DNA from: Oscillospiraceae bacterium
GTDB taxonomy: Bacteria; Bacillota; Clostridia; Oscillospirales; Oscillospiraceae
NCBI GenBank assembly: GCA_910575695.1
Contig: CAJTGJ010000022.1
Span: 1 to 64,000, forward strand
Length of the DNA stretch: 64,000 bases
Direction: 5' to 3'
Positions within the stretch are counted from its first letter, which is position 1; each line of letters opens with the position of its first letter. The notes beneath the pieces were generated by a model that ran no database searches, had not been told where the DNA came from, and saw only the letters and a program-made list of their open reading frames with translations. Shown here in pieces: positions 16,207 through 41,448 of the stretch. A program made the position numbers and the translations under genes.

Positions 16207-19200
16207 TTACTGATACAGCTCAATGAGCTTTTGCAAATGCTCCCAGCGGGCCATCGCGGCCTCCTCGTTCTTCTTGAACAGCTCATCGGCGCGCTCCGGG
16301 AAGGAACGGGTCAGGGAGCTGTAGCGGGCCTCGTTCAGCAGGAACTCCTGGTAGCCGCCCGCCGGGGCCTTGCTGTCCAGGGTGAACGGATTCTTGCCCT
16401 GGTCCTTGTTGGCGGGGTTGTACCGGAACAGGTTCCAGTAGCCGCAGGCCACGGCCTTCTTCATCTCGCTCTGGCAGTTGGCCATGCCGCCCTTGATGGA
16501 GTGCATCTCGCAGGGGCTGTAGCCGATGATCAGGGACGGGCCGTGATAGGCCTCGGCCTCACGGATGGCCTGGAGGGTCTGGTTCGGGTTGGCGCCCATG
16601 GCCACCTGGGCCACGTACACGTAGCCGTACTGCATCACGATCTCCGCCAGGGACTTCTTGGCGATGGCCTTGCCCGCGGCGGCAAACTGCGCCACCTGGC
16701 CCAAGTTGGAGGACTTGGACGCCTGTCCGCCGGTGTTGGAGTACACCTCGGTGTCGAACACGAAGATGTTCACATCCTCGCCGGAGGCCAGCACGTGGTC
16801 CAGTCCGCCGTAGCCGATATCATAGGCCCAGCCGTCACCGCCGAAGATCCACACGGATTTCTTGTTCAGGTAGTCCTTCCCGTCCAGGATCTCCTTGGCC
16901 AGCTTGCAGGCGTCGCAGTCGCAGAACTCAGCGCCGCCGTCCTTCAGCTCCTTGGCGTGGGCCTGCATCATGGGCAGCTTGTCGCCAAAGACGTCCTTGG
17001 CGGCGGGGCTGTTGACGAACGCGGTCACATCCTCAATGGTGCACAGGCCTTCCTCCAGGGCGGCGATATATGCGGCGGTAGCGGCCTGGTTGGCCTCGCC
17101 GTCGTCCATGGTGTCCAGCCACTTCTGGGCGGCTTCCTTCAGGGGGCCGTAGACGTGGGGCACCGCGATGAGGGCGCGGGTCTTGTCGGCCAGGGCGTTG
17201 CGGATGGCCTTCTGGCCCAGGTGGATGCCCAGGCCGTGCTCAGCGTTGTCCTCGAACAGGGAGTTGGCCCAGGCCACGCCCTTGCCGTCCTTGTTGACGG
17301 TGTAGGGAGAGGTGGCGGCGGGACCGCCCCAGATGGAGGAACAGCCGGTGGCGTTGGAAACGTACATACGCTCGCCGCACACCTGGGTGACCAGACGGGC
17401 GTAAGCGGTCTCGGCACAGCCGGCGCAGGAGCCGGAGAACTCCAGCAGGGGCTGCTTGAACTGGCTGTCCTTGACGGACGCGGTGCCCTCCATGTCGGCC
17501 TTGGGGGCCACCTTGGACACCATATAATCGAAAGCGGGCTGACGGCCGGCCTCCTGCTCCAGGGGCACCATGCTCAGGCTCTTGGTGGGGCAGATGCCAA
17601 CGCAGACGGAGCAGCCCATGCAGTCCATGGGGCTGACGGCCAGAGAGTACTTGTACACGCCCTTGCCCTTGCCGGCCTTGACATCCACGATCCGGGCGCA
17701 CTCGGGGGCGTTCTTTGCCTCCTCGTCGGTGAGGGCGAAGGGACGGATGGTGGCGTGGGGGCAGACGTAGGCGCACTGGTTGCACTGTACGCAGGTGTCG
17801 GGGTTCCAGGCGGGCACGGACACGGCCACGCCGCGCTTCTCATAGGCGGCGGCGCCCTGCTGGAAGGTGCCGTCCACATAGGGAGAGAAGGCGGACACGG
17901 GCAGGCTGTCGCCGTCCATGCGGCCCACGGGCTCCATGACGTTCTCCACCATGGCCACCAGCTCGGGCTTGCCCTCCAGGTGCTCGCCCTTGTCCTCGTC
18001 CTGGGCGGAGGCCCAGGAGGCGGGCACGTCGAACTTCTTGAAGGCGGTGGCGCCGATGTCGATGGCCTTGTGGTTCATGTCCACCACGTCCTGGCCCTTC
18101 TTCAGGTAGGAGTGGGTGGCGGCATCCTTCATATAACCGATGGCCTCGCTCTCAGGCATGACCTTGGACAGCGCGAAGAAAGCGGACTGGAGGATGGTGT
18201 TGGTGCGCTTGCCCATGCCGATCTCAATGGCCAGGTCGATGGCGTTGATGGTGTACACCTGGATGTTGTGCTCCGCGATGTAGCGCTTGGCCACGGCAGG
18301 CATATGCTTATCCAGCTCCTCGTCGGACCACTGGCAGTTGATGAGGAAGGTGCCGCCGTCCTTCACGTCCCGGACCATGGGGAAGCCCTTGACGATATAG
18401 GCGGGCACGTGGCAGGCCACAAAGTCGGCCTTGTTGATATAGTAGGGGGCGCGGATGGGCTGGTCGCCGAAGCGCAGGTGGCTGATGGTCACGCCGCCGG
18501 TCTTCTTGGAGTCGTACTGGAAGTACGCCTGGACATACTTGTCGGTGTGGTCGCCGATGATTTTGATGGAGTTCTTGTTGGCGCCCACGGTGCCGTCGCC
18601 GCCCAGACCCCAGAACTTGACCTCGATGGTGCCCTCGGCCGCGGTGTTGGGGGAGGGCTTCTCCTCCAGGGACATATTGGTGACGTCGTCCACGATGCCG
18701 ATGGTGAACTGGCGCTTCTGCTCCGCCTTGGTCAGCTCCTCATAGACAGCGAACACGCTGGCGGGCGGGGTGTCCTTGGAACCCAGGCCGTAGCGTCCGC
18801 CGATGACGGAGACGTCGTTCCGGCCCGCGTTGGCCAGAGCGGTGACCACGTCCAGGTACAGGGGCTCGCCCTGAGCGCCGGGCTCCTTGGTGCGGTCCAG
18901 CACAGCGATCTTCTTGCAGGTGGCGGGGATGGCGGCCAGCAGCTTGTCCGCGCGCCAGGGGCGGTACAGACGGACCTTGATGAGGCCCACCTTCTCGCCG
19001 TGGGCGTTCAGGTAGTCGATGACCTCCTCGGCCACGTCGCAGATGGAACCCATGGCGATGATGACGCGGTCGGCGTCCTCAGCGCCATAATAGTTAAAGA
19101 GCTGATAATTGGTGCCCAGCTTGGCATTGACCTTGCCCATATACTCCTCCACGATCTCGGGGACCGCGTCATAGTAGCTGTTGCAGGCCTCGCGGTGCTG

Positions 19201-19878
19201 GAAGAAGATGTCGCCGTTCTCGTGGGAACCGCGCATCACGGGATGGTCGGGATTCAGGGCGCGGGCGCGGAACTCGCTGATGGCGTCCCAGTCCGCCATC
19301 TCAGCCAGATCGTCGTAGTCCCAGATGGCGACCTTTTGGATCTCGTGGGAGGTGCGGAAGCCGTCGAAGAAGTTCAGGAAGGGGACGCGGCCCTTGATGG
19401 CGGCCAGATGGGCCACCGCGCCCAGGTCCATGACCTCCTGGACATTGCCCTCAGCCAGCATGGCAAAACCAGTCTGGCGGCAGGCCATCACGTCGGAGTG
19501 GTCGCCGAAGATGTTCAGCGCGTGGCTGGCCACGGTACGGGCGGACACGTGGAACACCCCGGGCAGCAGCTCGCCGGCGATCTTGTACATATTGGGGATC
19601 ATCAGCAGCAGGCCCTGGGAGGCGGTGTAGGTGGTGGTCAGGGCGCCAGCGGCCAGAGAGCCGTGGACGGTGCCGGCGGCGCCGGCCTCGGACTGCATCT
19701 CGATGACCTTCACGGTCTGGCCGAAGATGTTCTTACGGCCGGCGGCGGCCCACTGGTCGACATTATCGGCCATAGGGCTGGACGGGGTGATGGGATAGAT
19801 GCCGGCCACCTCGGTGAAGGCGTACGACACGTGGGCGGCAGCGGTATTGCCGTCCATTGTTTTGAATTTACGAGCCAT
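16207..19878 (-). CDS. nifJ: Pyruvate:ferredoxin (flavodoxin) oxidoreductase
   Basis: 1223 residues, a single-chain enzyme of full family length. It cleaves pyruvate with CoA to acetyl-CoA and CO2 and reduces ferredoxin, the central step of clostridial fermentation. Domain order is complete: N-terminal domain starting FKTMDGNTAAAHVSYAFTEV with YPITPSSPMAD, the gamma domain, two ferredoxin clusters (CVQCNQCAYVCP and CMGCSVCVGICP, near residues 700-760), the cluster Cys pair in CAGCAETAY, and the thiamine diphosphate motif GDGWAYDIGYGGLD with NTGGQASKS. AAGGAGG lies 9 bases before the ATG. Cytoplasmic homodimer; single gene with strong promoter and terminator. Confidence 0.98.
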   Translation of the reverse strand: MARKFKTMDGNTAAAHVSYAFTEVAGIYPITPSSPMADNVDQWAAAGRKNIFGQTVKVIEMQSEAGAAGTVHGSLAAGALTTTYTASQGLLLMIPNMYKIAGELLPGVFHVSARTVASHALNIFGDHSDVMACRQTGFAMLAEGNVQEVMDLGAVAHLAAIKGRVPFLNFFDGFRTSHEIQKVAIWDYDDLAEMADWDAISEFRARALNPDHPVMRGSHENGDIFFQHREACNSYYDAVPEIVEEYMGKVNAKLGTNYQLFNYYGAEDADRVIIAMGSICDVAEEVIDYLNAHGEKVGLIKVRLYRPWRADKLLAAIPATCKKIAVLDRTKEPGAQGEPLYLDVVTALANAGRNDVSVIGGRYGLGSKDTPPASVFAVYEELTKAEQKRQFTIGIVDDVTNMSLEEKPSPNTAAEGTIEVKFWGLGGDGTVGANKNSIKIIGDHTDKYVQAYFQYDSKKTGGVTISHLRFGDQPIRAPYYINKADFVACHVPAYIVKGFPMVRDVKDGGTFLINCQWSDEELDKHMPAVAKRYIAEHNIQVYTINAIDLAIEIGMGKRTNTILQSAFFALSKVMPESEAIGYMKDAATHSYLKKGQDVVDMNHKAIDIGATAFKKFDVPASWASAQDEDKGEHLEGKPELVAMVENVMEPVGRMDGDSLPVSAFSPYVDGTFQQGAAAYEKRGVAVSVPAWNPDTCVQCNQCAYVCPHATIRPFALTDEEAKNAPECARIVDVKAGKGKGVYKYSLAVSPMDCMGCSVCVGICPTKSLSMVPLEQEAGRQPAFDYMVSKVAPKADMEGTASVKDSQFKQPLLEFSGSCAGCAETAYARLVTQVCGERMYVSNATGCSSIWGGPAATSPYTVNKDGKGVAWANSLFEDNAEHGLGIHLGQKAIRNALADKTRALIAVPHVYGPLKEAAQKWLDTMDDGEANQAATAAYIAALEEGLCTIEDVTAFVNSPAAKDVFGDKLPMMQAHAKELKDGGAEFCDCDACKLAKEILDGKDYLNKKSVWIFGGDGWAYDIGYGGLDHVLASGEDVNIFVFDTEVYSNTGGQASKSSNLGQVAQFAAAGKAIAKKSLAEIVMQYGYVYVAQVAMGANPNQTLQAIREAEAYHGPSLIIGYSPCEMHSIKGGMANCQSEMKKAVACGYWNLFRYNPANKDQGKNPFTLDSKAPAGGYQEFLLNEARYSSLTRSFPERADELFKKNEEAAMARWEHLQKLIELYQ

Positions 19879-19976: not shown

Positions 19977-20031
19977 TTCCTTCTTGTGTTTTTTTCGTCA
20001 ATCTTTTGTCCGGCCCCAATCCGGCGGAAAA

Positions 20032-20069
20032 CGCCAAAAAACGGCCCGCCCTCCTGGGGGCAGGCCGTC
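20032..20069 (-). terminator. Terminator of the flavonoid-type operon
   Basis: On the minus strand ACGGCCTGCCC pairs with GGGCGGGCCGT (one G-U pair), followed by TTTTTTGGCG, directly after the stop of the LVIVD protein gene. Confidence 0.85.
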
Positions 20070-20076
20070 AATAGGT

Positions 20077-21444
20077 TCAGTCCTTGTTCTTCAGCCGCAG
20101 GATATACATCCCATCGTGCCAGGTATCGATGTAGATATAGCCCCGGTCGTCCACCACGCAGTCCTCGGTGGTGGCGATCATGGGACCGGGCACGGGCACG
20201 TCAAACAGCAGCTTCTCCGGGTTGGGCGGGATGAAGTAGGCGATCTCCTTGATGTAGTAGGGATCGGACACGTCGAACACCCGCAGCCCCGCGTGGAAGT
20301 AGCAGTTGTAGACCAGATTGGGGTCGTCCTGGAGCCAGGGCTTGCCCATGGGCTCGTGGATGTTGTGGGGGCCGAAGGGGCCGGGGGCACCGATGCCGCA
20401 GTCGTTGAAATTGGGGTAGGGGAAGTCCTCGGGCACCTCGGGATAGGGGAACTCCGCCACCAGGGTGGGATCGGCGGGGTCGGACACGTCGATCATATGC
20501 AGGTTGTTCATGGGCTGGGCGCCCTTGTGCACGCCGTTGAGGATTTTGTCCTTGGTGAAGAAGGGGAAACGCTCCCCCTCGTTGGTAAGGACAGCGAAGT
20601 TCCGGCCGGTGAGGCGCATATAAGTGTGGCACTGGGCGCCGTCAAACTTACCGGCGAAGGGGGGCTGCACCATCAGCTGGGAGATCAGCTTGGGCCGGGT
20701 GGGGTCGGAGATGTCCAGAATGATAGCGCCGCCGCCGAAATAGCCCAGGTACAGCTCGTTGGGGTGGTCGGGGCAGATGTTGCAGGCGTGGCACATTCCC
20801 CAGAACTTCTCCGCGTCATGGCCCACGGCGTAGGTGCCCTCCACCATGCCGTCCTTGAACTGCTTGGGCAGCCACCAGCGGCCCGCCTCCACCGGGTTGC
20901 GGGGATCGGCGATATCCAAAATCCGGACGATGAAGCCCACGAAGCCCGGGCACTCGGCGGGCATATAAATATACCTGCCGCCGTTGTAGGCGAAGCGGTG
21001 CACGCCCATGCCGTTGGGCAGGCCGGTGTGCCAGTGGGAGAGCAGCCTGGGGTGAATGGGGTCCTCCTTCAGATCGTAGATCTGGAGGCCGTCGTCGGCG
21101 GGATCGCCGGGCTTGATACCGTGGAGGAAGGGCACGCCGCCGCCCAGGGCCACGATGAGCTTGTCGTCCGCCACCTGCACCTTGGGGGTGGACTGGGCAA
21201 AGTAGACGTTGGGGTCGCTGACCCAGACAATGCCCACCACCTCGGGCTTGGCGGGGTCGGTGACGTCCACGATGTTCACCCCGGCCCCCTTGAAGGAGCC
21301 GCAGTACATATAATACTTGTCCTCAGTCTTGTAAAGGGCCATCTGGAACGCGTTGATTCCGTTCAGGTCGGAGAAGCCCACAACCTCCATGTTTTTGATG
21401 TAGCCCTGGTTGTTCTCACTTTTGGCATAAAACGGGATGGACAT
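20077..21444 (-). CDS. LVIVD-repeat beta-propeller protein in the flavonoid operon
   Basis: 455 residues without a signal peptide. At least six repeats of the form hydrophobic-D-hydrophobic-SDP are visible: VNIVDVTDPAKPEVVG, IVRILDIADPRNPVEAG, AIILDISDPTRPKLIS, HMIDVSDPADPTLVA, LRVFDVSDPYYIKEIA and a divergent LQIYDLKEDP. LVIVD repeats build beta-propellers related to the selenium-binding-protein fold. Many histidines recur near blade edges (SHWHTGLPNGMGVHR, GMCHACNIC, AQCHTYMRL, GPHNIHEP, CYFHAGLRV, DTWHDG), which suggests a metal site in the central channel. Last gene of the four-gene operon. No function is established; given its neighbours it could be an enzyme or binding protein for flavonoid intermediates. 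Confidence 0.8.
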   Translation of the reverse strand: MSIPFYAKSENNQGYIKNMEVVGFSDLNGINAFQMALYKTEDKYYMYCGSFKGAGVNIVDVTDPAKPEVVGIVWVSDPNVYFAQSTPKVQVADDKLIVALGGGVPFLHGIKPGDPADDGLQIYDLKEDPIHPRLLSHWHTGLPNGMGVHRFAYNGGRYIYMPAECPGFVGFIVRILDIADPRNPVEAGRWWLPKQFKDGMVEGTYAVGHDAEKFWGMCHACNICPDHPNELYLGYFGGGAIILDISDPTRPKLISQLMVQPPFAGKFDGAQCHTYMRLTGRNFAVLTNEGERFPFFTKDKILNGVHKGAQPMNNLHMIDVSDPADPTLVAEFPYPEVPEDFPYPNFNDCGIGAPGPFGPHNIHEPMGKPWLQDDPNLVYNCYFHAGLRVFDVSDPYYIKEIAYFIPPNPEKLLFDVPVPGPMIATTEDCVVDDRGYIYIDTWHDGMYILRLKNKD

Positions 21445-21497
21445 TGGAAATCATTCCTCCTTGCGGATTTTTTGACAGATTAGCGCCCTGCGGCAAT

Positions 21498-21522
21498 GGG
21501 CGCGCCTGCGGCAGGCGCGCCC
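21498..21522. repeat. Strong intercistronic hairpin in the flavonoid operon
   Basis: GGGCGCGCCT pairs with AGGCGCGCCC around GCGGC, between the four-TM gene and the propeller gene. There is no T tract in either direction, so it is more likely an mRNA-stabilising or processing element than a terminator. Confidence 0.6.
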
Positions 21523-21544
21523 ATTCAGCTCTGGTTCGGTCGGA

Positions 21545-22024
21545 TCAGGGATGCCCGCCGGGGAACGCGCCGGGGCCGGGGTCCTTGCTGCACATCATAC
21601 CGGTGACAGCCAGCAGGGGCTTGAAGAAAATGGACACGCTGACGAACGCGGCGGCCAGCATGGGGAGCAGGGACATGGCCCAGATATTGAGCATTCCAAA
21701 CAGGGCGAACTTCAGCTCAATGAACATCATGCTGAAGCTCATGAGCAGCACCAGCAGGAAGGAAATGAAGAAGATGCGCACGAAATAGGCGGGAGCGCTG
21801 TCCATCTTCAGGCCGAGCTTCTGCACGAAGAAGTTGCCGAAGCCAGGCAGGTCAATGAGGGTTTCCCAGGCCATGCATACAAAGAAGCCGGCGAAGGAGC
21901 CTACGATGATGTTCTCTGCGGTGAGCTGATCGGCCAGAGCCTTGCTGACAACAGTCATAATAATGCCGATGACCAGTGCCAGCCAGAAATTGAATACAAC
22001 GGGAAAGCTGGTTTTCTTAAACAC
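21545..22024 (-). CDS. Four-TM integral membrane protein, function unknown
   Basis: 159 residues with four hydrophobic helices, at about 9-33 (VVFNFWLALVIGIIMTVV), 40-58, 80-104 (IFFISFLLVLLMSFSMMF) and 107-135, then a short polar tail. A weak similarity in style to DUF2798-type small membrane proteins is all I can offer. It lies third in the operon, 103 bases after the chalcone isomerase gene and 100 bases before the propeller gene, so it is probably co-expressed. With only four helices it is small for a transporter and might act as an oligomer, in substrate entry, or as an anchor. Confidence 0.65.
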   Translation of the reverse strand: MFKKTSFPVVFNFWLALVIGIIMTVVSKALADQLTAENIIVGSFAGFFVCMAWETLIDLPGFGNFFVQKLGLKMDSAPAYFVRIFFISFLLVLLMSFSMMFIELKFALFGMLNIWAMSLLPMLAAAFVSVSIFFKPLLAVTGMMCSKDPGPGAFPGGHP

Positions 22025-22127
22025 AGTTTTTCATTCCTTTCACGTTAGAAAAAATCTGCGCGTCCCCAGGCAGGGACCGGCGCGGGGCAAACTGCGCCCC
22101 CGCTTAGCGTCGGGAAGAAAGGCGGGC

Positions 22128-22979
22128 TTACCGCATGGTGATGTAGCCCCGGTACTGGGTCAGGTTGTCGCTGGCCGCCATGTCGGACAGGAACATCCCG
22201 ACAATGTAATGGTTTGGCTTCAGGAAGGGGAATTGGGGCTGGGGAGCCTCCTTGGGGGCTTCCTTCGCCCAGTCAGGCTGGGGCATATCCTTCGTGCCCT
22301 CCACCGCGGCGGCGTACCATTCCTCGGGGCCGTCGAACCACAGCTCCACCAGGCGGTGGAACTGGCAGCCCACCACGTCGTGATAAATTTTGCTGGACAC
22401 GAAACGGTTGACCTCGGGGCGGTTCTGGAAATAGGGCACGAACACCTCGTTGAACCACTTCTCCCCTGTCTTTTCGCAGGGCCAGCGCAGGACGAACTGC
22501 CAGCGGTAGTTGGGGCCGTCGTCGATGGTGCGGCCCGCGCCCTTGTAGTCGTCCTGCCAGTTGATGGGCACGTGGGCGAACACGAAGGGAGGCATCCCGT
22601 TGTCCCCGCCGGAGGAGCGGTGGGCGTCGCCGTCCATATTGGCGGTGGGAATGTCGTCGGTGTCGGGCATCATCCCCTGCCAGCGCAGCACCACCGGCGG
22701 CATCCGCTCGGTGAAGGCGTTGACGTGCATCTCCGGGGCCATCTCGTTCAGCGTCCAGTAGTGCTCCGTCATCTGCATCCGGCGGGTGCCGAAGCGCTCT
22801 CCCCCAGGGGGCGTGGGCAGGGCGTTGTAGAAGGCGTATTTATTGCAGTAGGGCGCGAACTTGGAAATGCTGTCGGGCACATGGACAGAGTACAGCCAGT
22901 GCTGGAGGCGGTGGCGGTATTCCTCCTTCACGCAGTCCACATAGATGACACTGCGCATGGGGCGGTATTCAAAGGACAT
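22128..22979 (-). CDS. chi: Bacterial chalcone isomerase (Eubacterium ramulus type)
   Basis: 283 residues. The sequence follows the E. ramulus chalcone isomerase along its whole length as I remember it: N-terminal PMRSVIYVDCVKEEYR, then SVHVPDSISKFAPY, KYAFY, RMQMTEHYW, a GRTIDDGPNYRW segment, and a C-terminus ending NLTQYRGYITMR. His33 in VHVPDS corresponds to the catalytic acid/base histidine described for that enzyme. The family interconverts chalcones and flavanones, and the E. ramulus enzyme also turns taxifolin into alphitonin. The fold is a ferredoxin-like barrel unrelated to plant CHI. The gene follows the FMN reductase gene by 18 bases. Cytoplasmic; oxygen-independent. Confidence 0.9.
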   Translation of the reverse strand: MSFEYRPMRSVIYVDCVKEEYRHRLQHWLYSVHVPDSISKFAPYCNKYAFYNALPTPPGGERFGTRRMQMTEHYWTLNEMAPEMHVNAFTERMPPVVLRWQGMMPDTDDIPTANMDGDAHRSSGGDNGMPPFVFAHVPINWQDDYKGAGRTIDDGPNYRWQFVLRWPCEKTGEKWFNEVFVPYFQNRPEVNRFVSSKIYHDVVGCQFHRLVELWFDGPEEWYAAAVEGTKDMPQPDWAKEAPKEAPQPQFPFLKPNHYIVGMFLSDMAASDNLTQYRGYITMR

Positions 22980-22997
22980 TTTGGATACGCCTCCTTT

Positions 22998-23966
22998 TTA
23001 TTTCTCCGGCTTGGAGGTCTGGATGAAATCACGGTACTTCTGCTTGCGGGCCTTGGCCTCGTCAGTCTGCATCAGGGTGCGGGCCTCGGCCTCGTTGCGC
23101 TGGATGTCGTCGCCGTGGATGAACTTGCCGGGGATAGAATCATGGGCGTGGGGAATCCACTTCTCTTGGTCGAACTCAAAGACGTACTTGCCGTCCACGT
23201 TCTTCATGACGCCCTCGGTGCCGCACAGACAGCAGATGGCCACGCCGTCCTCCTGGAGGTAGAAGTTGTTGCTGTGGCAGTAGGGGCACACACCAGCGGG
23301 GCCCTTGTAGTCCTCGTTGAAGCAGCCGTGGGCGGGGACGAAGGTGCCGTCAGCAATCTTCCTGGCGGCGGCGGCCAGGTCGGCACCCATCTGGTGGGCC
23401 TTGGCGATGGCGTCGTCGTTCATCAGGATGGTGAGGGACCAGGGGAAGCAGTGGTTGTCAATGACGGTCCACTTGGGGGTGAGGGCGTGGGTGGCAAAGT
23501 CGCACTGGATGCGGGTGGCCCAGTCGGAACCGCCGATGCCCATGAAGGTGACCACCTTCTCCTTGAGGTACTTGGGGTCGATGGGCTTGCCGCCGTGCTC
23601 CTCGGCGATTTTGGTTGCGATCATCAGGTTGCCCCGGTCCATGCGGGGGCCAAAGCGGTCCATAATGGTGTGGAACAGGCCGGGAGCGCACTTCTCGAAG
23701 ATGGGAGCAGCCCAGATGATACCGTCGGCATCGAACATCTTATCGATGAGCCACTGGAGATCGTCCTTCAGGACACAGCCGTTGCCCCGGCCGGAGAACA
23801 GGCCCATGACGCAGGCCTTGCAGCCCGTGCAGTGCTTGATGTCCAGTTGGGTGACGTTGATGAACTCGATCTCGGCCCCGGCCTCCTGAGCGGCCATCAG
23901 GGCCTCCTTGCACAGGGAGTCATTGGCGCCGTTGAGCGTTCCGGCGGACAGACCTAATACTTTCAT
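22998..23966 (-). CDS. FMN-dependent flavodoxin-fold reductase, candidate flavone reductase (ene-reductase)
   Basis: 322 residues from the ATG at 23966, preceded by GAGGAGGAG; the frame is open further upstream but has no binding site. Residues 1-~200 are a flavodoxin-like NADPH-dependent FMN reductase domain: GLSAGTLNGANDSLCKEAL for the FMN phosphate, a cysteine cluster CTGCKAC (46-52) with Cys64, and WAAPIFEKCAPGLFHTIMDR. Residues 227-248 form a CxxC-x14-CxxC zinc ribbon. It is the first gene of the operon and adjoins chalcone isomerase. Flavonifractor plautii has an FMN ene-reductase (FLR) that saturates the C2-C3 bond of flavones and flavonols; this gene is my candidate for its homologue, from context plus family, not from alignment. 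Confidence 0.75.
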   Translation of the reverse strand: MKVLGLSAGTLNGANDSLCKEALMAAQEAGAEIEFINVTQLDIKHCTGCKACVMGLFSGRGNGCVLKDDLQWLIDKMFDADGIIWAAPIFEKCAPGLFHTIMDRFGPRMDRGNLMIATKIAEEHGGKPIDPKYLKEKVVTFMGIGGSDWATRIQCDFATHALTPKWTVIDNHCFPWSLTILMNDDAIAKAHQMGADLAAAARKIADGTFVPAHGCFNEDYKGPAGVCPYCHSNNFYLQEDGVAICCLCGTEGVMKNVDGKYVFEFDQEKWIPHAHDSIPGKFIHGDDIQRNEAEARTLMQTDEAKARKQKYRDFIQTSKPEK

Positions 23967-24038
23967 GAAATACTCCTCCTCGTTAATGTTTGCCGGACCA
24001 TATGCGAACCACACATTGGTCAGCTTAGACACAAACTT

Positions 24039-24067
24039 AATATAAATGTTTTTCATCCATGTGTAAA
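24039..24067 (-). promoter_or_regulatory. Promoter of the flavonoid-type operon
   Basis: Minus strand TTTACA, 17-base spacer, TATATT, about 73 bases before the reductase start. The 354-base divergent region 23967-24320 holds this promoter and that of the LysR gene and is AT-rich; no other gene was seen in it. Confidence 0.7.
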
Positions 24068-24259
24068 ATATCAAATCTGTATGGCAGAAATGCAAAATCC
24101 GTTTAGATGGCGGAAGACAGAAAGCTTTCCCCTAAATTATGGAAGCGGCTCCCCCGAAATTTGTGGATTCTTCCCAAAAGAGCGGAATTTGTTATGGGCA
24201 GAATCACGTTTTTTTACAAAAATCTTCATAGCTGTTATGCAAAAAATAGATTAAATGAT

Positions 24260-24288
24260 GTGACAAATGACGAGGGCTCTGGTATACT
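24260..24288 (+). promoter_or_regulatory. Promoter of the LysR regulator gene
   Basis: GTGACA, 17-base spacer, TATACT, ending 32 bases before the start codon. Confidence 0.65.
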
Positions 24289-24320
24289 GGCAGAAAAACG
24301 GCAGAAAAGGACGTGGCGCA

Positions 24321-25235
24321 ATGACGCTAACCCAACTAGAGAGCTTTCTGGTGCTGGCCCAGCGGCTGAGCTTTACCCAGGCCGCAGAAGATCTGTTCAT
24401 CTCCCAGCCCGCCCTGAGCCGCATGATCTCCGCCCTGGAGCAGGAGCTGGGTCTCCAGCTCTTTTACCGAAGCTCCCGCAATGTGTCCCTCACCCCGGCG
24501 GGACGGGCCTTCGCCCAGGAGTGCCCCCGGATCCTGGAAGCCTGCCGCGCCGGGGTGGACGCGGCCCAGCTGGCTCAGCGGGGCTTCCGGGGCCAGATCA
24601 CCGTGGGCATCCTGCGGGACACCTTTGACGCCAGCGCGGTGAAACTCCATCATCAGATGGCGGAAAAATACCCGCAGATCCACCTGTCTTTTCAGGAACT
24701 GAGCCATTCCGACCTGATCCGCTCCCTGATGGCCGGGGAGGTGGACGCCATCATCAACACCGGGGAGACCCTGCCTCCAGACGATGTGGAGTCCATCGTC
24801 CTGCACCGGGACAGGCAGTGCGCGGTGGTCCCGGCCCGCTCCCCCCTGGCCCGGATGCGCAGCCTGCGCATGGAGGACCTCAGAGAGGAAAATTTCGTCG
24901 TCATGTCCCGTACCTCCTCCCTGCCCGGATACGGGCTGGTGTGGAAGATGGCGGCGGACGCGGGCTTCATTCCCAAGGTGGCGGCGGAGGCCAACTATGT
25001 ACCCAGCCTGCTGATGATGGTGGCCTGCGGCATCGGCGTGAGCACGCTGACCGAAAATCTGGAGTATCTGTCCCAACGGATGGTGAGCTTTATCCCGCTG
25101 GTGGGGGTGCCGCTGTCCTGCCACGCCTTTTCCTGGCGCCGGGACAGCCAGAACCCCTCCCTGCCCTTTTTGCTGGATGTGGTCCGGAAAAATCTGGTCC
25201 AGGGCGGGAAACAGCCCGTCGGGACTGCTTATTGA
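24321..25235 (+). CDS. LysR-family transcriptional regulator, probable activator of the divergent flavonoid operon
   Basis: 304 residues, normal for the family. N-terminal winged helix (residues 1-60): LTQLESFLVLAQRLSFTQAAEDLFISQPALSRMI with the recognition helix, then LGLQLFYRSSRNVSLTPAG. The effector-binding domain begins at QITVGILRDTF (~residue 92) and has two alpha/beta lobes (DAIINTGE, GIGVSTLTE). The ATG at 24321 is the only one that fits the HTH start; its ribosome site (AAAGGACG) is weak. It is transcribed away from the reductase-isomerase operon across a shared 354-base region, the classic LysR arrangement, so a flavonoid or breakdown product is the likely co-inducer. Confidence 0.92.
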   Translation: MTLTQLESFLVLAQRLSFTQAAEDLFISQPALSRMISALEQELGLQLFYRSSRNVSLTPAGRAFAQECPRILEACRAGVDAAQLAQRGFRGQITVGILRDTFDASAVKLHHQMAEKYPQIHLSFQELSHSDLIRSLMAGEVDAIINTGETLPPDDVESIVLHRDRQCAVVPARSPLARMRSLRMEDLREENFVVMSRTSSLPGYGLVWKMAADAGFIPKVAAEANYVPSLLMMVACGIGVSTLTENLEYLSQRMVSFIPLVGVPLSCHAFSWRRDSQNPSLPFLLDVVRKNLVQGGKQPVGTAY

Positions 25236-25506: not shown

Positions 25507-25881
25507 ATGGACCATCCAAGACTGGCCGAGGGCGAGTACCGCTTCGCCTGCATCGTCTGGGAGCACGAGCCCCTTCCCTCCGGCAAGCTGGTGGAGCTGT
25601 CCCGGCAGGAGCTGGGCTGGAAAAAATCCACCACCTACACTGTGCTGAAAAAGCTGGCGGAAAAGGGCGTGCTGCGCAACGAAAACGCGGTGGTCACCGC
25701 CGCCGTCCCCAAGGAGGAGATCCTCCGGGAGGAGAGCCGCGCGGTGGTGGACCGCACCTTTGAAGGCTCCCTGCCCTCCTTCCTGGCCCACTTCATGGGG
25801 GGGAAAACCATTTCTGACGCCGAGGCCGACGAGCTGAAGGCCATCATTGACCGCTTCAGAGAGGGGGATCACCATGGTTGA
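25507..25881 (+). CDS. BlaI/MecI-family transcriptional repressor
   Basis: 124 residues. The winged-helix N-terminal domain reads LAEGEYRFACIVWEHEPL then GWKKSTTYTVLKKLAEKGVL, the DNA-reading helix and wing of BlaI proteins. The C-terminal ~50 residues form the dimerisation helices (LPSFLAHFMGGKTISDAEADELK). It has AAAGGAGG 8 bases before the start. It overlaps the downstream M56 peptidase gene by 8 bases; in such pairs the membrane peptidase senses a wall-active signal and the repressor is cleaved. No beta-lactamase gene is nearby, so the target may be this operon alone. Confidence 0.92.
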   Translation: MDHPRLAEGEYRFACIVWEHEPLPSGKLVELSRQELGWKKSTTYTVLKKLAEKGVLRNENAVVTAAVPKEEILREESRAVVDRTFEGSLPSFLAHFMGGKTISDAEADELKAIIDRFREGDHHG

Positions 25882-28120
25882 CCGCTTGAGCGCCCTGTTC
25901 CAATCGCTCGCCCCCCTGTGGGAGATGAGCGTCACCGCCGCTTATGCCTCCGCCATCGTCATGGTACTGCGCCTGCTGCTGAAAAAGCGGGCGCCCAGGC
26001 AGGTCCTGTGCCTGCTGTGGCTGGTGGTGTTCGCCCGGCTGCTGATCCCGGTGACGCTGGAGAGCCCGCTGTCCATTGTCCCAAGCGCCCTGCCGGGGCA
26101 GGAACAGCAGACCGTCCTTCCCAACACGCCCCAGGCCCCGGCGCGGGACAGCATTCAGGGACAGCCCAATGCCGGCACAGCCGACCCTGTCACAAATGAT
26201 CCCGCCGAGCCCTCCCTCGCCATACCCGGGAACGTCACCCCCGCCGCCCTCCCCGGCCAGCCGGAACAAACCGGCTCCCCCTGGCAGGCCGTCATCGCCG
26301 GAGTATGGCTGGCGGGCGCAATCGCCATGGGCGGATACGCTCTGTTCTCCTATCTCCGGCTCCGCCGCCGCCTGTTTGACGCCATCCGCGCCAGGGACGG
26401 CGCGTGGGAGCATCCCGACCTGGATTCCCCCTTTATCCTGGGCGTGTTCCGGCCCCGGATCTACCTCCCCGCCGGACTGGTGGGACAGCCGCGGCAGTTT
26501 ATCCTGTGCCATGAGCGGGCCCACCTGCGCCGCCTGGACCACATCGTCAAGCCGCTGTGCTGGGCTGCCCTGGCCCTCCACTGGTTCAATCCCCTGGTGT
26601 GGGCCTCCTTCATTCTCATGAGCCGGGACATCGAATCCGCCTGCGACGAGGCCGTGGTACGCCAGCTGGGCAGCGGCGTCAAAGCCGACTACTCCGCCAC
26701 CCTGCTGGCCCTGGCCACCGGGCGGCGGGCCCCCTCCCCCTGCCCTCTGGCCTTCGACGAGGGGGACGCCAAGGGCCGCATCAAGAACGTGCTGGGCTAC
26801 TGCCGTCCCGCCCTGTGGGTCATCGTAGTCAGCGTGACCGCGGCGGTGCTGGCGGCGGCGTGCCTGCTCACCGACCCGGTGGCGGCTGAGGCCCCCGACG
26901 GCAGCCCGGACGCCCCCGCCTCCCCAACCCCGGCGAATGTTCTGGCCGACACCCTGCTGGACCCATGGATGAAGGAGGTGCTGGACGGAGAGCGGAATTT
27001 CTCCACCACCTACGCCTTTGACAACAGCCGGACCTACAGCATCAACGACTTGAGATCGTTCTACTACGGGGACGGCCAGCTTCCGGACGAGCGGGTGGAG
27101 ATGGGCCGGCTGGCCATTGTGGACCTGGACCGGGACGGCATCAATGAAATGGTAATCTTCCCCGTGGGCGATAACGAGTATTTATACAGCGTTGTGGGCT
27201 ATCTGATCCTCCACCGCGTGGGGGACGAGGTCTACGGCTACGCCCCCGGCTGGCGCTCCTGTGAGTATATCAAGTCGGACGGGACCTTTACATGGAGCAG
27301 CGGCGCGGCGGACTGGGGCATCAGTTCCATGAGCTTCAATAGCGGCGAACTCGTCAACAACGACATCACCTGGTGCAGCTCCATCCAAGGCCCTGACGAG
27401 CTCTACTTTGTGGACGGCCTGAAGGCCAGCCGGGAAAAATTTGACGCGGCCTACGACGCCCACGCCGCCAAGCCCGAGCCTGTGTGGTACACCTACGCCG
27501 GCGGCGTACTGGACGTCTGGACGGACGACGCGGGGATGCGGACGCTGGACAAAACCATCCCCGAAACAGACTCCGGCGAGGCCGTGCTATGGCTGGATGA
27601 CGCGGAGCAGTTCTGGTTGGAGTGGAATGGCACAACCACCCTGCTAAACAGCTCGATTTCTTCGGAGCAGTTCAGCGATATTCTCTGTCGGGACTTCGAC
27701 GGCGACGGGGAAAACGAGGTAGTGCTGACCTACCAGATAAACGGCTTCCCCCAGCTGGAGCTGTACGAGTGGAACGGCGATACCCCCGTCCTTGCCGGCT
27801 CCTATGACACACAGCAGCTCCTGCTGCGGTTCAACCAGAGCAATGTGGCGGGCTACAACAAGGACACCCGAGGGCTTACCGTCACCTACTCCCACAACGA
27901 ACGCAGTTCGGACAGTGAGGACTACGACCGCCGCTATGTCACCGGCAGCGCACCCTCCCCGAAGGCTTCTTTGACCGCTATGAGCACATCCGGGACGGCT
28001 ACACCCACGCCTACGCCAACCAGTTCAGCCTGTTCCATCTTGTGGACGATGCGCAAATCCATAACGCCTTCAGTTTCGATTTCGACTTCTATCTGTCGGA
28101 CGAAACCATGCAGGAGCTGA
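25874..28120 (+). CDS. M56-family (BlaR1-like) membrane metallopeptidase, frameshifted near the 3' end
   Basis: Start at the ATG 25874, overlapping the BlaI gene. TM helices near residues 15-35 and 38-55, a long Pro/Thr-rich external linker (~65-135), another TM (~140-160), then the zinc protease motif HERAH in LCHERAHLRRLDH at about residue 215 with the distal Glu/Asp in SRDIESACDEAVV, and a last TM near residue 320. A ~400-residue external sensor domain follows, with Asp-rich strands such as IVDLDRDGINEMVI. At about 27950-27960 the frame slips, so the last ~50 residues to the stop at 28120 are read out of frame. The protease half is intact; sensing may be altered, or the slip may be an assembly error. 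Confidence 0.8.
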   Translation: MVDRLSALFQSLAPLWEMSVTAAYASAIVMVLRLLLKKRAPRQVLCLLWLVVFARLLIPVTLESPLSIVPSALPGQEQQTVLPNTPQAPARDSIQGQPNAGTADPVTNDPAEPSLAIPGNVTPAALPGQPEQTGSPWQAVIAGVWLAGAIAMGGYALFSYLRLRRRLFDAIRARDGAWEHPDLDSPFILGVFRPRIYLPAGLVGQPRQFILCHERAHLRRLDHIVKPLCWAALALHWFNPLVWASFILMSRDIESACDEAVVRQLGSGVKADYSATLLALATGRRAPSPCPLAFDEGDAKGRIKNVLGYCRPALWVIVVSVTAAVLAAACLLTDPVAAEAPDGSPDAPASPTPANVLADTLLDPWMKEVLDGERNFSTTYAFDNSRTYSINDLRSFYYGDGQLPDERVEMGRLAIVDLDRDGINEMVIFPVGDNEYLYSVVGYLILHRVGDEVYGYAPGWRSCEYIKSDGTFTWSSGAADWGISSMSFNSGELVNNDITWCSSIQGPDELYFVDGLKASREKFDAAYDAHAAKPEPVWYTYAGGVLDVWTDDAGMRTLDKTIPETDSGEAVLWLDDAEQFWLEWNGTTTLLNSSISSEQFSDILCRDFDGDGENEVVLTYQINGFPQLELYEWNGDTPVLAGSYDTQQLLLRFNQSNVAGYNKDTRGLTVTYSHNERSSDSEDYDRRYVTGSAPSPKASLTAMSTSGTATPTPTPTSSACSILWTMRKSITPSVSISTSICRTKPCRS

Positions 28121-38919: not shown

Positions 38920-41448
38920 CTATTGCTCCTTTTCCGCCACCTCGTCGGCCATGCCGATGAGGTCGAATTTTTCCGTGGAAACCACAATATCAAAATCGTT
39001 CTTCTGGGGCTTGAGGCACTTCACCCAGATGGTGCGGTCGGACAGGTTGTAGTACCAGCCGGACTCTGCCTCCTCCCAGTTGTCCCGGACCAGGAAGCGG
39101 GGAATCCGCGCCCCGTCCACAGTGACCCAGTAAGCGCCCTTGCTCTTGCTGACCACCTTCAGCGTCAGCCGCTCCACCGTGCCGGGGTAGCTGCCCTCCT
39201 TGTGGAAGGAGATGATCTTGCGGTCGCCGCCCTTAACGGAAATAGTGGTCTTGGCATATACGCCGTTTTTGTAGTCCTGGGTGTGGCCATCGTCATCGTA
39301 GAATACCATGCTGCTGTCCCCACCGGCGGCGATGGTCAGATCCAGCTGCCTCATGGTATCCGACAGGACGTGGGTCACGTCCTCACTGGTGAACAGGATG
39401 GCGTTTCCCCGCAGAAACATGGGAATGCTGTCCAGCGTCACGGGAACGGTGATGGTCTTTCCGCCCTCATACTCCCGCATGAAGTCGTTCATGTCATACC
39501 ACTTCGTACCGGCGGGCAGGTAGACAGTACGCTCGGCGGCCCCCTTCTCCACCACATTGGCCACCAGCAGGGACGGGCCGAACATGAAGGCCAGATTCTG
39601 GTCCCGGTAGCATTCCACGTCCTCGGGGAACTCCAGGAACAGGGGCCGCATGACGGGCACACCCGTCTGGCTTGCCTGGTACATCAGGGAGTACAGATAG
39701 GGCAGCAGGCGGTAGCGCAGGGCATAGGCCGCTTTCACCTGGGGCAGGCATTCCTCGTACATCCAGGGCTGGGTGACGGTGTTGTCGTCGTTGGCGGAGT
39801 TGATGGTGAACCGGGGCTGGAAGATGCCGCTCTGAATCCAGCGCAGCAGCAATTCACCCTCGGGGGCTCCCCCGGCAAAGCCGCCGATGTCACAGCCCAT
39901 GTTGGCACAGCCGGACAGGCCCATGCCCATGATGGTGGCCAGGTTGAACTTCACCGTCCTCCAATCGGTGAGGTTGTCGCCGCCCCAGACCTGGGCGTAA
40001 CGCTGGATGCCCGCGTAGCCCGCCCGGTTGATGACGTAGGGCCGCTCGTTGGGATACATCTCCTCCAGCGCCTTCCAGCCCACATAGGCCATCATGTTGG
40101 AGTGGATGATCTTCAGCTCCGCCATGGTGCCCTTCTGCCCCTCAAAATCGCACTGGGCGTTCCGGTCGTCGATGCCGTCCATCTCGCAGTTGTCGTTCCA
40201 GACGGTTTTACAGCCCTTGGACAGAATGGTTTCCTTCAGCAGGTGCTTCCAGGCGTCCCGGCCTGCGGGGCCGGTGAAGTCGATGAACCGGCCCTCCCCG
40301 CCCCACCAGCGGCCATAGGCGTCCCCTTCCCCGCCGGGGGCTTTGATAAAGGCGTCGTGGTCCTCGTAGTATTGGGCGTAGGGGTGGTGCTCCAGTACGC
40401 CGGGCTTCAGGTTGGGAATCACGTTGATGCCCTTGGCGTTCATGGCGGCGAAAAACTTCTCCGGGTCGGGGAAGCGCTTGTAATTCCAGTTGAAAGTATA
40501 GCGCAGGCCGTCCGCTTCCCCGGCGGAATAGCCGGAGGCCAGCCAGAAGTTGTCGATATACAGCTTTTCCTGGAGGTGCTTGTCGATGACCTTGTAGATC
40601 TCCTGGTCGCAGCCCTGCTCCAGCTCGGCGTAGTACATGGTGGAGGCGCAGAAGCCCAGAGACTGCTTGGTGGGCAGGGCGGGACGGCCCGTCAGCCAGG
40701 TGTAGCGCTCGATCACGTCCGCCATCCGGGGGCCGTTGAGGAGGAACAGGTCGATGTCTCCGCCGTCCGCCTGCCAGTAGCAGTAACGCTCCCAGTAGCC
40801 GCTGATCTCCTGGCCCATGTCGAACACACAGTCATAGGAATTGTGGTAGAACAGGCCCAGGGCGTGGAGACGGTCCTCGTTGACGCGGATATAAAAGGGG
40901 ATGTGCTTGTACATGGGGTCGCCGTGCTCCGGGTCGTGGCCGATGGCGTCCTTGGGGCTCATCCGCAGGCGGCGCCCCTTTTTGTCCAGGTGTCCTGTCT
41001 TTTCACCAAAGCCGAAGAAATGGTCCTTCTGGCGGTCCATGCAGGAGTAGTGGCTGACGCGGCCCAGCTGGTCGATCTCAAAGGCCCGCTCGGCCAGGTC
41101 CCGGTAGATGCACGTGCCCTCTGCGGTGTAGAGGGAGAAGGACAGCGGCTCCTTCTTCATCACCAGCTTTAAGGTGCCGGTGCGGAAAGTCAGCGTGGAT
41201 GCCCCCTCCTCGCAGGGGACGTCCAGGGGCTGGACGCGCCGGCGCTCCCCCGCGAACAGGGGATCCAGCCGGTCGGGCCAGGCGGTGGTCACCAGGGCGT
41301 AGGACTGCTCGGGAAATGCCCGGGAAAAGGACGCCCGGATACGGATCACATCGTCGCTGAGGAAAGCTAAAAGCACGTCGGCCCGGTCCCCATGGATTAC
41401 ATAGCCCACGGGGGTTTTCTCATGAGAGACATATTGTTTCAGCAGCAT
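38920..41448 (-). CDS. Glycoside hydrolase family 31 enzyme (alpha-glucosidase-like), copy A
   Basis: 842 residues, no signal peptide, so intracellular. GH31 layout: N-terminal beta-sandwich (1-~230), TIM barrel (~240-600), C-terminal beta domains. The nucleophile region reads WNDNCE with Asp419; the acid/base is Asp491 in QVWGGDNLTDW. The first motif differs from the usual DMNE/DFGE versions, so specificity is not predictable. It has AAAGGAG 6 bases before the ATG. It is about half identical by eye to the neighbouring copy B, a tandem duplication that has diverged. In a uronate operon it probably releases an alpha-linked residue from an acidic oligosaccharide; that is inference. Confidence 0.9.
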   Translation of the reverse strand: MLLKQYVSHEKTPVGYVIHGDRADVLLAFLSDDVIRIRASFSRAFPEQSYALVTTAWPDRLDPLFAGERRRVQPLDVPCEEGASTLTFRTGTLKLVMKKEPLSFSLYTAEGTCIYRDLAERAFEIDQLGRVSHYSCMDRQKDHFFGFGEKTGHLDKKGRRLRMSPKDAIGHDPEHGDPMYKHIPFYIRVNEDRLHALGLFYHNSYDCVFDMGQEISGYWERYCYWQADGGDIDLFLLNGPRMADVIERYTWLTGRPALPTKQSLGFCASTMYYAELEQGCDQEIYKVIDKHLQEKLYIDNFWLASGYSAGEADGLRYTFNWNYKRFPDPEKFFAAMNAKGINVIPNLKPGVLEHHPYAQYYEDHDAFIKAPGGEGDAYGRWWGGEGRFIDFTGPAGRDAWKHLLKETILSKGCKTVWNDNCEMDGIDDRNAQCDFEGQKGTMAELKIIHSNMMAYVGWKALEEMYPNERPYVINRAGYAGIQRYAQVWGGDNLTDWRTVKFNLATIMGMGLSGCANMGCDIGGFAGGAPEGELLLRWIQSGIFQPRFTINSANDDNTVTQPWMYEECLPQVKAAYALRYRLLPYLYSLMYQASQTGVPVMRPLFLEFPEDVECYRDQNLAFMFGPSLLVANVVEKGAAERTVYLPAGTKWYDMNDFMREYEGGKTITVPVTLDSIPMFLRGNAILFTSEDVTHVLSDTMRQLDLTIAAGGDSSMVFYDDDGHTQDYKNGVYAKTTISVKGGDRKIISFHKEGSYPGTVERLTLKVVSKSKGAYWVTVDGARIPRFLVRDNWEEAESGWYYNLSDRTIWVKCLKPQKNDFDIVVSTEKFDLIGMADEVAEKEQ

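Follow-up and report, generated by a model that had tools for sequence, protein, structure and literature searches.

The DNA analysed here, referred to as the window, is the 64,000-nucleotide stretch at positions 1-64,000 of contig CAJTGJ010000022.1 (assembly GCA_910575695.1, Oscillospiraceae bacterium). From 23966 down to 20077, its minus strand carries four successive genes. These encode a predicted FMN-dependent flavone/flavonol C2-C3 ene-reductase of the flavone reductase (FLR) type (22998-23966, ATG at 23966, 322 aa, FMN_red by homology), a predicted Eubacterium ramulus-type chalcone isomerase (CHI; 22128-22979, 283 aa, PF18232), a small membrane protein (21545-22024, 159 aa) and a propeller protein with LVIVD repeats (20077-21444, 455 aa, PF08309). 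A LysR-type regulator with PF00126 (HTH_1) and PF03466 (LysR_substrate) domains is encoded divergently on the plus strand (24321-25235). All five genes lie where the initial annotation, a model's reading of the letters, had placed them. With slightly better than even confidence, the run is read here as a flavonol degradation operon in which the LVIVD propeller would act as an alphitonin hydrolase, feeding a 2-oxoacid oxidoreductase, a phosphotransbutyrylase (Ptb) and a butyrate kinase (Buk) encoded elsewhere in the genome.

The gaps between the four minus-strand genes are only 18, 103 and 100 bases long. Directly 3' of the LVIVD gene lies a probable intrinsic terminator on the minus strand, with a 12-bp stem followed by U6; the fold of 20020-20076 has an energy of -32.3 kcal/mol (z -4.1), and none of 200 shuffles was as good. 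This hairpin was missed by the consensus terminator scan and was revealed by folding. Because of it, the operon most likely ends after the LVIVD gene. A single-chain PFOR gene (16207-19857) sits beyond this strong terminator and was rejected as an operon member. The divergent intergenic region (23967-24320) spans 354 bp with 60% A+T. Ahead of FLR the consensus scan found a sigma-70 match of 10/12 (24067-24039, minus), and ahead of LysR a promoter-like site (24260-24288, plus); this is weak evidence, as five promoter-like sites were found against 1.7 expected. A single promoter for the minus-strand run is plausible. A search for a LysR box in the same region was dropped, the matches being only poly-T-like. 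Since Flavonifractor plautii (L086) and other genomes keep the same gene order, a chance arrangement is untenable.

The initial annotation had proposed that the reductase is an FLR-type ene-reductase and had named alignment with F. plautii FLR as its test. That alignment is significant (phmmer E 1e-122 against PDB 7d38), with 186 of 309 aligned residues identical (60%). Residues 1-322 of the query align to residues 1-309 of the 7d38 chain, the C-terminal domain included, and this is the sole distinct PDB sequence that matches the reductase at E 0.001 or better. In PMC7862272, 7d38 is given as an FLR structure, and mutants at G106, W149, H271 and I275 are described as strongly impaired or inactive. 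All four residues are retained in the window protein, as are the FMN contacts I89, E91, K92, D103, G146, S147 and N15; the substitutions observed are M10 to T, S14 to A, V144 to I and T279 to E. The assignment of the protein as an FLR-type flavone/flavonol reductase working with FMNH2 is, therefore, supported at the level of homology.

A similar picture was obtained for the isomerase, which the initial annotation had described as an E. ramulus-type CHI with conserved His33. It scores 184 bits against the Chalcone_N family PF18232 (cut-off 25; 8e-55) and shows 46% identity with the E. ramulus enzyme (E about 1e-80). Both His33 and Asp36 are kept, along with His73, Gln101 and Glu91, so the description stands. 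The differences are Asp79 to Glu, Phe93 to Met and Arg125 to Gly. The Glu91-Arg125 salt bridge of the lid finds no counterpart, as Arg125 lies opposite Gly124 at a place where the alignment is gapped and poor. The lid is reported not to be essential for catalysis in E. ramulus CHI, and the enzyme is said to take taxifolin to alphitonin via the chalcone and a diketo tautomer (PMC9694015). The homology supports the window protein as a putative isomerase of this type, contracting taxifolin to alphitonin. A second, distant CHI-like family of about 256 aa was also seen (L083:12776-13552, L047:8462-9247, L101, L102 and L089:6470-7240), being 21% and 22% identical to the window CHI at the two loci measured. 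Its genes adjoin that of a VOC/glyoxalase protein or of an LVIVD protein, and it is possibly another flavonoid isomerase.

The linkage of flr and chi is already in print, and the operon itself is therefore no new finding. The F. plautii genes are A4U99_05915 for FLR and A4U99_05920 for CHI; FLR was discovered among genes associated with chi and phy, where 14 candidates were assayed with apigenin (PMC7862272). Neither taxifolin nor alphitonin occurs in the main text of that paper.

What the present comparison adds is the LVIVD protein as a core partner of CHI. Two samples were searched, one of the family (200 genomes) and one of the phylum (398 genomes), with the source genome counted in both. 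In the family sample, CHI was found in 10 genomes and LVIVD in 12; LVIVD is present in all 10 genomes with CHI vs 2 of the 190 without it (Fisher p 3e-15, a value in which independence is overstated, as the genomes are related). Two genomes have LVIVD alone. In G190 the FLR-LVIVD pair lies at the beginning of a contig, whose edge may have removed CHI, and in G079 the protein is only 39% identical. In the phylum sample, the three genomes with CHI are the only three with LVIVD above 500 bits.

The wider species scan found 149 LVIVD relatives. The best 80 loci, from named genomes, were kept and a stretch of up to 10 kb on each side was fetched; the counts exclude the LVIVD, CHI and FLR of the window itself. 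For these relatives, genes were mapped with a codon-bias caller, since longest-ORF calling gave wrong-strand frames in G+C-rich DNA. The closest relatives are Oscillospiraceae or Bacillota metagenome-assembled genome (MAG) records, followed by Flavonifractor spp. Among the best 80 loci, CHI lies nearby in 34 (33 plus one fragment, L074) and FLR in 32; the loci with only the second CHI-like family (L101, L102) were dropped, and with them the CHI count would be 36. Apart from the oxidoreductase set, the LysR genes and the relatives of the small membrane protein, all treated below, none of the other clustered families counted occurs at more than 7 of the 80 loci. A quick tree of 79 LVIVD proteins has long branches; with 35 of the proteins labelled as adjacent, it needs at least 17 label changes, 14 of them forced by starred branches. 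Thus, the linkage between LVIVD and CHI/FLR was made or broken many times.

Two of the LVIVD loci come from the MAGs CTSoil_007 (Holophagaceae, L081) and CTSoil_081 (Bacillota, L103), with CHI elsewhere in both genomes. By name only, these are equated with the Holophaga MAG CTSoil_7 and the Sporomusales MAG CTSoil_81, which were prominent in late condensed-tannin microcosms and from which CHI and FCR were recovered (PMC8084988). The same study found that indole-pyruvate oxidoreductase was expressed by these taxa and proposed that it takes phenylpyruvates to phenylacetates. It assigned C-ring cleavage to phloretin hydrolase, and LVIVD goes unmentioned in the available part of its text. The initial annotation had seen no obvious role for CHI in a gut bacterium apart from diet flavonoids; this is qualified by the relatives outside the gut, in these wetland-soil MAGs.

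A second association concerns what would come after ring cleavage. Of the 80 loci, 16 have VorABG or IorAB oxidoreductase genes and/or Ptb/Buk genes (PorA or IorA at 14, Ptb or Buk at 15, both kinds at 13). The Vor type is present in Flavonifractor spp. (L060, L064, L065), CE91-St43 (L084), Hungatella (L105), Christensenella (L135), an Enterococcaceae MAG (L106) and others. Here a CbiA-like P-loop gene is found in the stretch together with genes for a 67-aa ferredoxin, for VorABG-type subunits and for Ptb, along with Buk where the fetched DNA extends far enough. In Leptolinea (L087; Chloroflexota), Clostridia SZUA-443 (L092), the single-contig genome G496, Clostridium puniceum (L104, L150) and Treponema (L085; no CHI in the genome), IorA-IorB takes this place, accompanied by Ptb and Buk, the order in Treponema being LVIVD-Ptb-IorAB-Buk. 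In G496 and Leptolinea, FLR-CHI-LVIVD lies within about 2 kb of IorA-IorB-Ptb-Buk. The Leptolinea IorB passes an NCBIfam cut-off for indolepyruvate:ferredoxin oxidoreductase, and two IorA proteins scored 570 and 589 against a cut-off of 651, both being N-terminally short as called. IorAB acts on a wider range of aryl pyruvates.

In the source genome, contig C48 carries a putative Buk-Ptb-VorGBA-ferredoxin-CbiA set and, divergent from it, an MFS gene of lactate/oxalate type that scores below the cut-offs. In NCBIfam, its VorB scores 430 over a cut-off of 399 and its Buk 449 over 289, with Ptb at 306 under 399. A VorB at least 66% identical to this one was found in 11 of 18 genomes with LVIVD vs none of 16 without it (p 1e-4), the E. 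ramulus protein being 86% identical. In the genus to which Scybalocola faecavium belongs (called Catenibacillus in PMC11170127), all three LVIVD-bearing genomes have the close VorB, including G621, which has no CHI above the cut-off; the one genome of the genus that lacks LVIVD (G639) also lacks it. It was also observed that VorABG is preceded by a P-loop gene resembling CbiA/CobQ and by the gene of a 67-aa ferredoxin at L138:9786-10764, with equivalents in L060, L105, L145, L146 and L147. At another locus, FLR-CHI-LVIVD has a CoA-hydrolase/transferase gene upstream (L088:953-2293), which is perhaps an alternative to Ptb/Buk.

The LVIVD protein scores 47.8 bits against PF08309 (gathering threshold 20.2), a sum of several weak repeats of which none passes singly. 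It is probably cytoplasmic because it has no long hydrophobic stretch. In 41 aligned LVIVD proteins, five histidines (H149, H219, H273, H360 and H363) are invariant, as are R150, R174, E186, E289, E364, E427 and D428. The spread of the histidines along the chain suggests a central metal site. The best PDB match of the LVIVD profile is haloalkylphosphorus hydrolase (5hrm, 5ioj), a metal-dependent beta-propeller hydrolase. The match (whole-chain E 1.5e-8) is weak and partial, covering several blade-like stretches of which the best has 16.9 bits (E 0.023); the invariant H219 aligns with a histidine of this enzyme. Two other identities were rejected by NCBIfam score, namely methanethiol oxidase (20.1 vs 650 bits) and choice-of-anchor B protein (22.1 vs a cut-off of 100 bits). 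No study of an LVIVD protein in flavonoid degradation was found in the open-licence PubMed Central literature; the single paper retrieved on both subjects was, judging by its title, unrelated.

Taken together, a pathway can be drawn whose FLR and CHI steps are based on homology and whose propeller and later steps are based on gene association. FLR would reduce quercetin-type flavonols to dihydroflavonols such as taxifolin, and CHI would open and contract the C-ring, giving the auronol alphitonin. Hydrolysis by the propeller would come next; it would proceed through the ring-open 1,2-diketone of alphitonin, break the bond to the A-ring and release phloroglucinol and 3,4-dihydroxyphenylpyruvate. 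Further, VorABG or IorAB may convert the arylpyruvate to arylacetyl-CoA and reduced ferredoxin, from which Ptb and Buk would yield 3,4-dihydroxyphenylacetate (DOPAC) and ATP. LVIVD is the natural candidate for the cleavage because its gene sits between CHI and the arylpyruvate oxidoreductase-Ptb-Buk set, and the candidacy is supported by the stoichiometry. Quercetin with two molecules of water gives phloroglucinol, DOPAC and CO2 (C15H10O7 + 2 H2O = C6H6O3 + C8H8O4 + CO2), which balances. The sum is redox-neutral, because the two electrons that FLR takes up equal the two released by arylpyruvate oxidation, and one ATP could form per flavonol. A chance somewhat short of even is given to the fuller proposal, namely that LVIVD is a cytoplasmic metal-dependent beta-propeller auronol hydrolase and that the Vor/Ior-Ptb-Buk branch conserves energy and supplies the FLR electrons, in Bacillota, Chloroflexota and, in part, other phyla.

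The reported chemistry is in line with this scheme. In C. decagia, 3,4-dihydroxyphenylacetate is formed from each of quercetin, taxifolin and alphitonin, and dihydroxyphenylpyruvate, beside phloroglucinol, is named as the hypothetical product of alphitonin cleavage (PMC11170127). In the same paper, C. scindens yields dihydroxyphenyllactate, for which the authors suggest dihydroxyphenylpyruvate as the source; reductive cleavage by Fcr followed by phloretin hydrolase would, in our view, give dihydroxyphenyllactate directly. In the available part of the open-licence PubMed Central literature, no enzyme named for alphitonin cleavage was found.

Several observations weigh against this reading of the propeller and its downstream branch. 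No CHI lies near LVIVD at 46 of the 80 loci. Two of these loci share assemblies with others (L102 with L101; L133 with L094, where CHI is nearby), so 44 of the 46 were taken into a genome-wide search for CHI. Of 42 genomes with no CHI near their LVIVD locus, 27 encode CHI above the cut-off elsewhere, E. ramulus included, and 15, among them Treponema and Scybalocola faecavium, do not. Six other genomes of the phylum sample have a weaker LVIVD (220 bits or less) and no CHI; therefore, the wider LVIVD family has other roles. Adjacency is also clustered on the tree (17 changes vs a shuffled mean of 26.1, with 0 of 500 shuffles as low), so p-values calculated as if the genomes were independent come out too small. 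The close VorB is missing from 7 of the 18 LVIVD-bearing genomes; two of the seven have IorAB, one (G149) is 66% complete, and in G065, G073, G144 and G582 the VorB matches reach 50% identity or less. In E. ramulus, the fetched stretch has Vor genes without Ptb or Buk. Two LVIVD paralogues, L050 (53%) and L051 (39%), have a glycyl-radical enzyme with its activase, and also a VOC protein, in their neighbourhood, possibly a different aromatic pathway with the same propeller family. In the source genome itself, the Vor-Ptb-Buk set is on a separate contig of an assembly with 6.08% estimated contamination (5.06 Mb, 296 contigs), and two other members of the genus (G066 with 2.8 Mb and G145 with 2.5 Mb) have no CHI, LVIVD or any VorB match. 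The source bin may contain two organisms; contigs C22, C48 and C17 presumably come from one.

Contig C17 bears on a rival explanation. It encodes a protein of the phloretin hydrolase (DAPG_hydrolase) family (PF18089, 268 bits), which might cleave alphitonin in place of the propeller, since phloretin hydrolase attacks the same kind of acyl-phloroglucinol bond. The operon would then be the known FLR-CHI module, and LVIVD would bind and deliver the flavonoid or supply electrons to FLR; the electron-supply variant is favoured by the statement that the electron chain of FLR remains to be explored (PMC7862272). This is considered unlikely. LVIVD is conserved like the enzymes (93% identity vs 86% for CHI in G118), it has the five invariant histidines, no redox cofactor motif is visible by eye, and the gene recurs beside Vor/Ior-Ptb-Buk without CHI or FLR (L085, L090, L095 and L100).

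It is equally improbable, in our estimate, that LVIVD is a metal-dependent enzyme acting elsewhere in the flavanonol branch, such as in chalcone/diketone isomerisation or on flavan-3-ols or other auronols, with Vor/Ior-Ptb-Buk still oxidising the arylpyruvate. The same association data fit this proposal, as do the LVIVD genomes without CHI and the paralogues beside glycyl-radical enzymes and VOC proteins; however, alphitonin cleavage is, to our knowledge, the step between CHI and Vor/Ior that has no assigned enzyme. A further proposal, to which a similarly low probability is given, holds that Ptb-Buk and Vor/Ior serve the fermentation of branched-chain amino acids or of phloroglucinol to butyrate and are neighbours for regulatory reasons only. 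VorB is indeed the family name of the C48 protein, and acetate and butyrate kinases go up in C. scatologenes growing on phloroglucinol (PMC10470551). The phloroglucinol pathway in the available text of that paper names no 2-oxoacid oxidoreductase, however. Two different types, VorABG and IorAB, occupy the same slot, the latter being named for an aryl pyruvate, and none of the 16 searched genomes without LVIVD has the close VorB. Alphitonin hydrolysis by the propeller, followed by arylpyruvate oxidation, is the reading retained here.

The remaining genes would have supporting roles. The 159-aa protein has about four hydrophobic stretches by hydropathy and no Pfam or NCBIfam match; its relatives occur at 9 of the 80 loci, and in the close relatives L059 and L075 its slot is occupied by an MFS transporter. 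It may move a substrate or product across the membrane, with uptake or efflux the likely function. The initial annotation had suspected undescribed steps in both this protein and LVIVD; co-occurrence and synteny back the suspicion for LVIVD, and the small membrane protein points only to transport. The LysR regulator may sense a flavonoid or a product; a LysR gene of the same cluster is present in the fetched stretch of 24 of the 80 loci, LysR genes being common anyway. In E. ramulus, a LysR gene precedes LVIVD and a PLP-dependent decarboxylase gene (Orn/DAP/Arg type; L131:11540-12808) follows it. Directly past the LysR gene of the window lie genes for a BlaI-like repressor (25507-25881, plus; PF03965) and a BlaR1-like M56 peptidase protein (25847-28120, plus; PF05569). 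A glycoside hydrolase family 31 gene (38920-41448, minus) is present without a link to the operon.

Alphitonin is the branch point at which some gut bacteria turn quercetin into DOPAC. With one conserved candidate gene and a defined downstream module, both its cleavage and the electron supply of FLR become directly testable. If the proposal is true, flavonol fermentation is a closed, redox-neutral and ATP-yielding pathway. LVIVD could then serve as a marker gene in metagenomes, separating degraders that form DOPAC from those that do not, and it would tie gut to wetland polyphenol degradation.

Known systems can be compared at several points. LVIVD repeats have been described in cell-surface proteins (PMC2447325); the window protein shares the repeats above the cut-off and lacks a long hydrophobic stretch. 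The flr-fcr-phy genes of Clostridium butyricum, in an operon-like arrangement, also provide for flavone reduction and ring cleavage; in contrast, the available text of PMC11868195 reports that no CHI was identified, that taxifolin goes to the dihydrochalcone and that auronol ring contraction was not observed. E. ramulus CHI (PDB 3zph, 4d06) has the PF18232 family and His33, Asp36, His73 and Gln101 in common with the window CHI. The closest parallel is F. plautii ATCC 29863, which has the same FLR-CHI-small membrane protein-LVIVD order and divergent LysR, its LVIVD being 68% identical and its FLR, as aligned above, 60%; at these values the window stems from another organism. In the available text on F. 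plautii, FLR, CHI, EnoR and PHY are described and the LVIVD gene is given no role (PMC7862272). What is new is the LVIVD protein as a core partner of FLR-CHI in many bacteria, and the cleavage of the flavonol skeleton into two parts, a step still missing its enzyme, has in this protein a good candidate.

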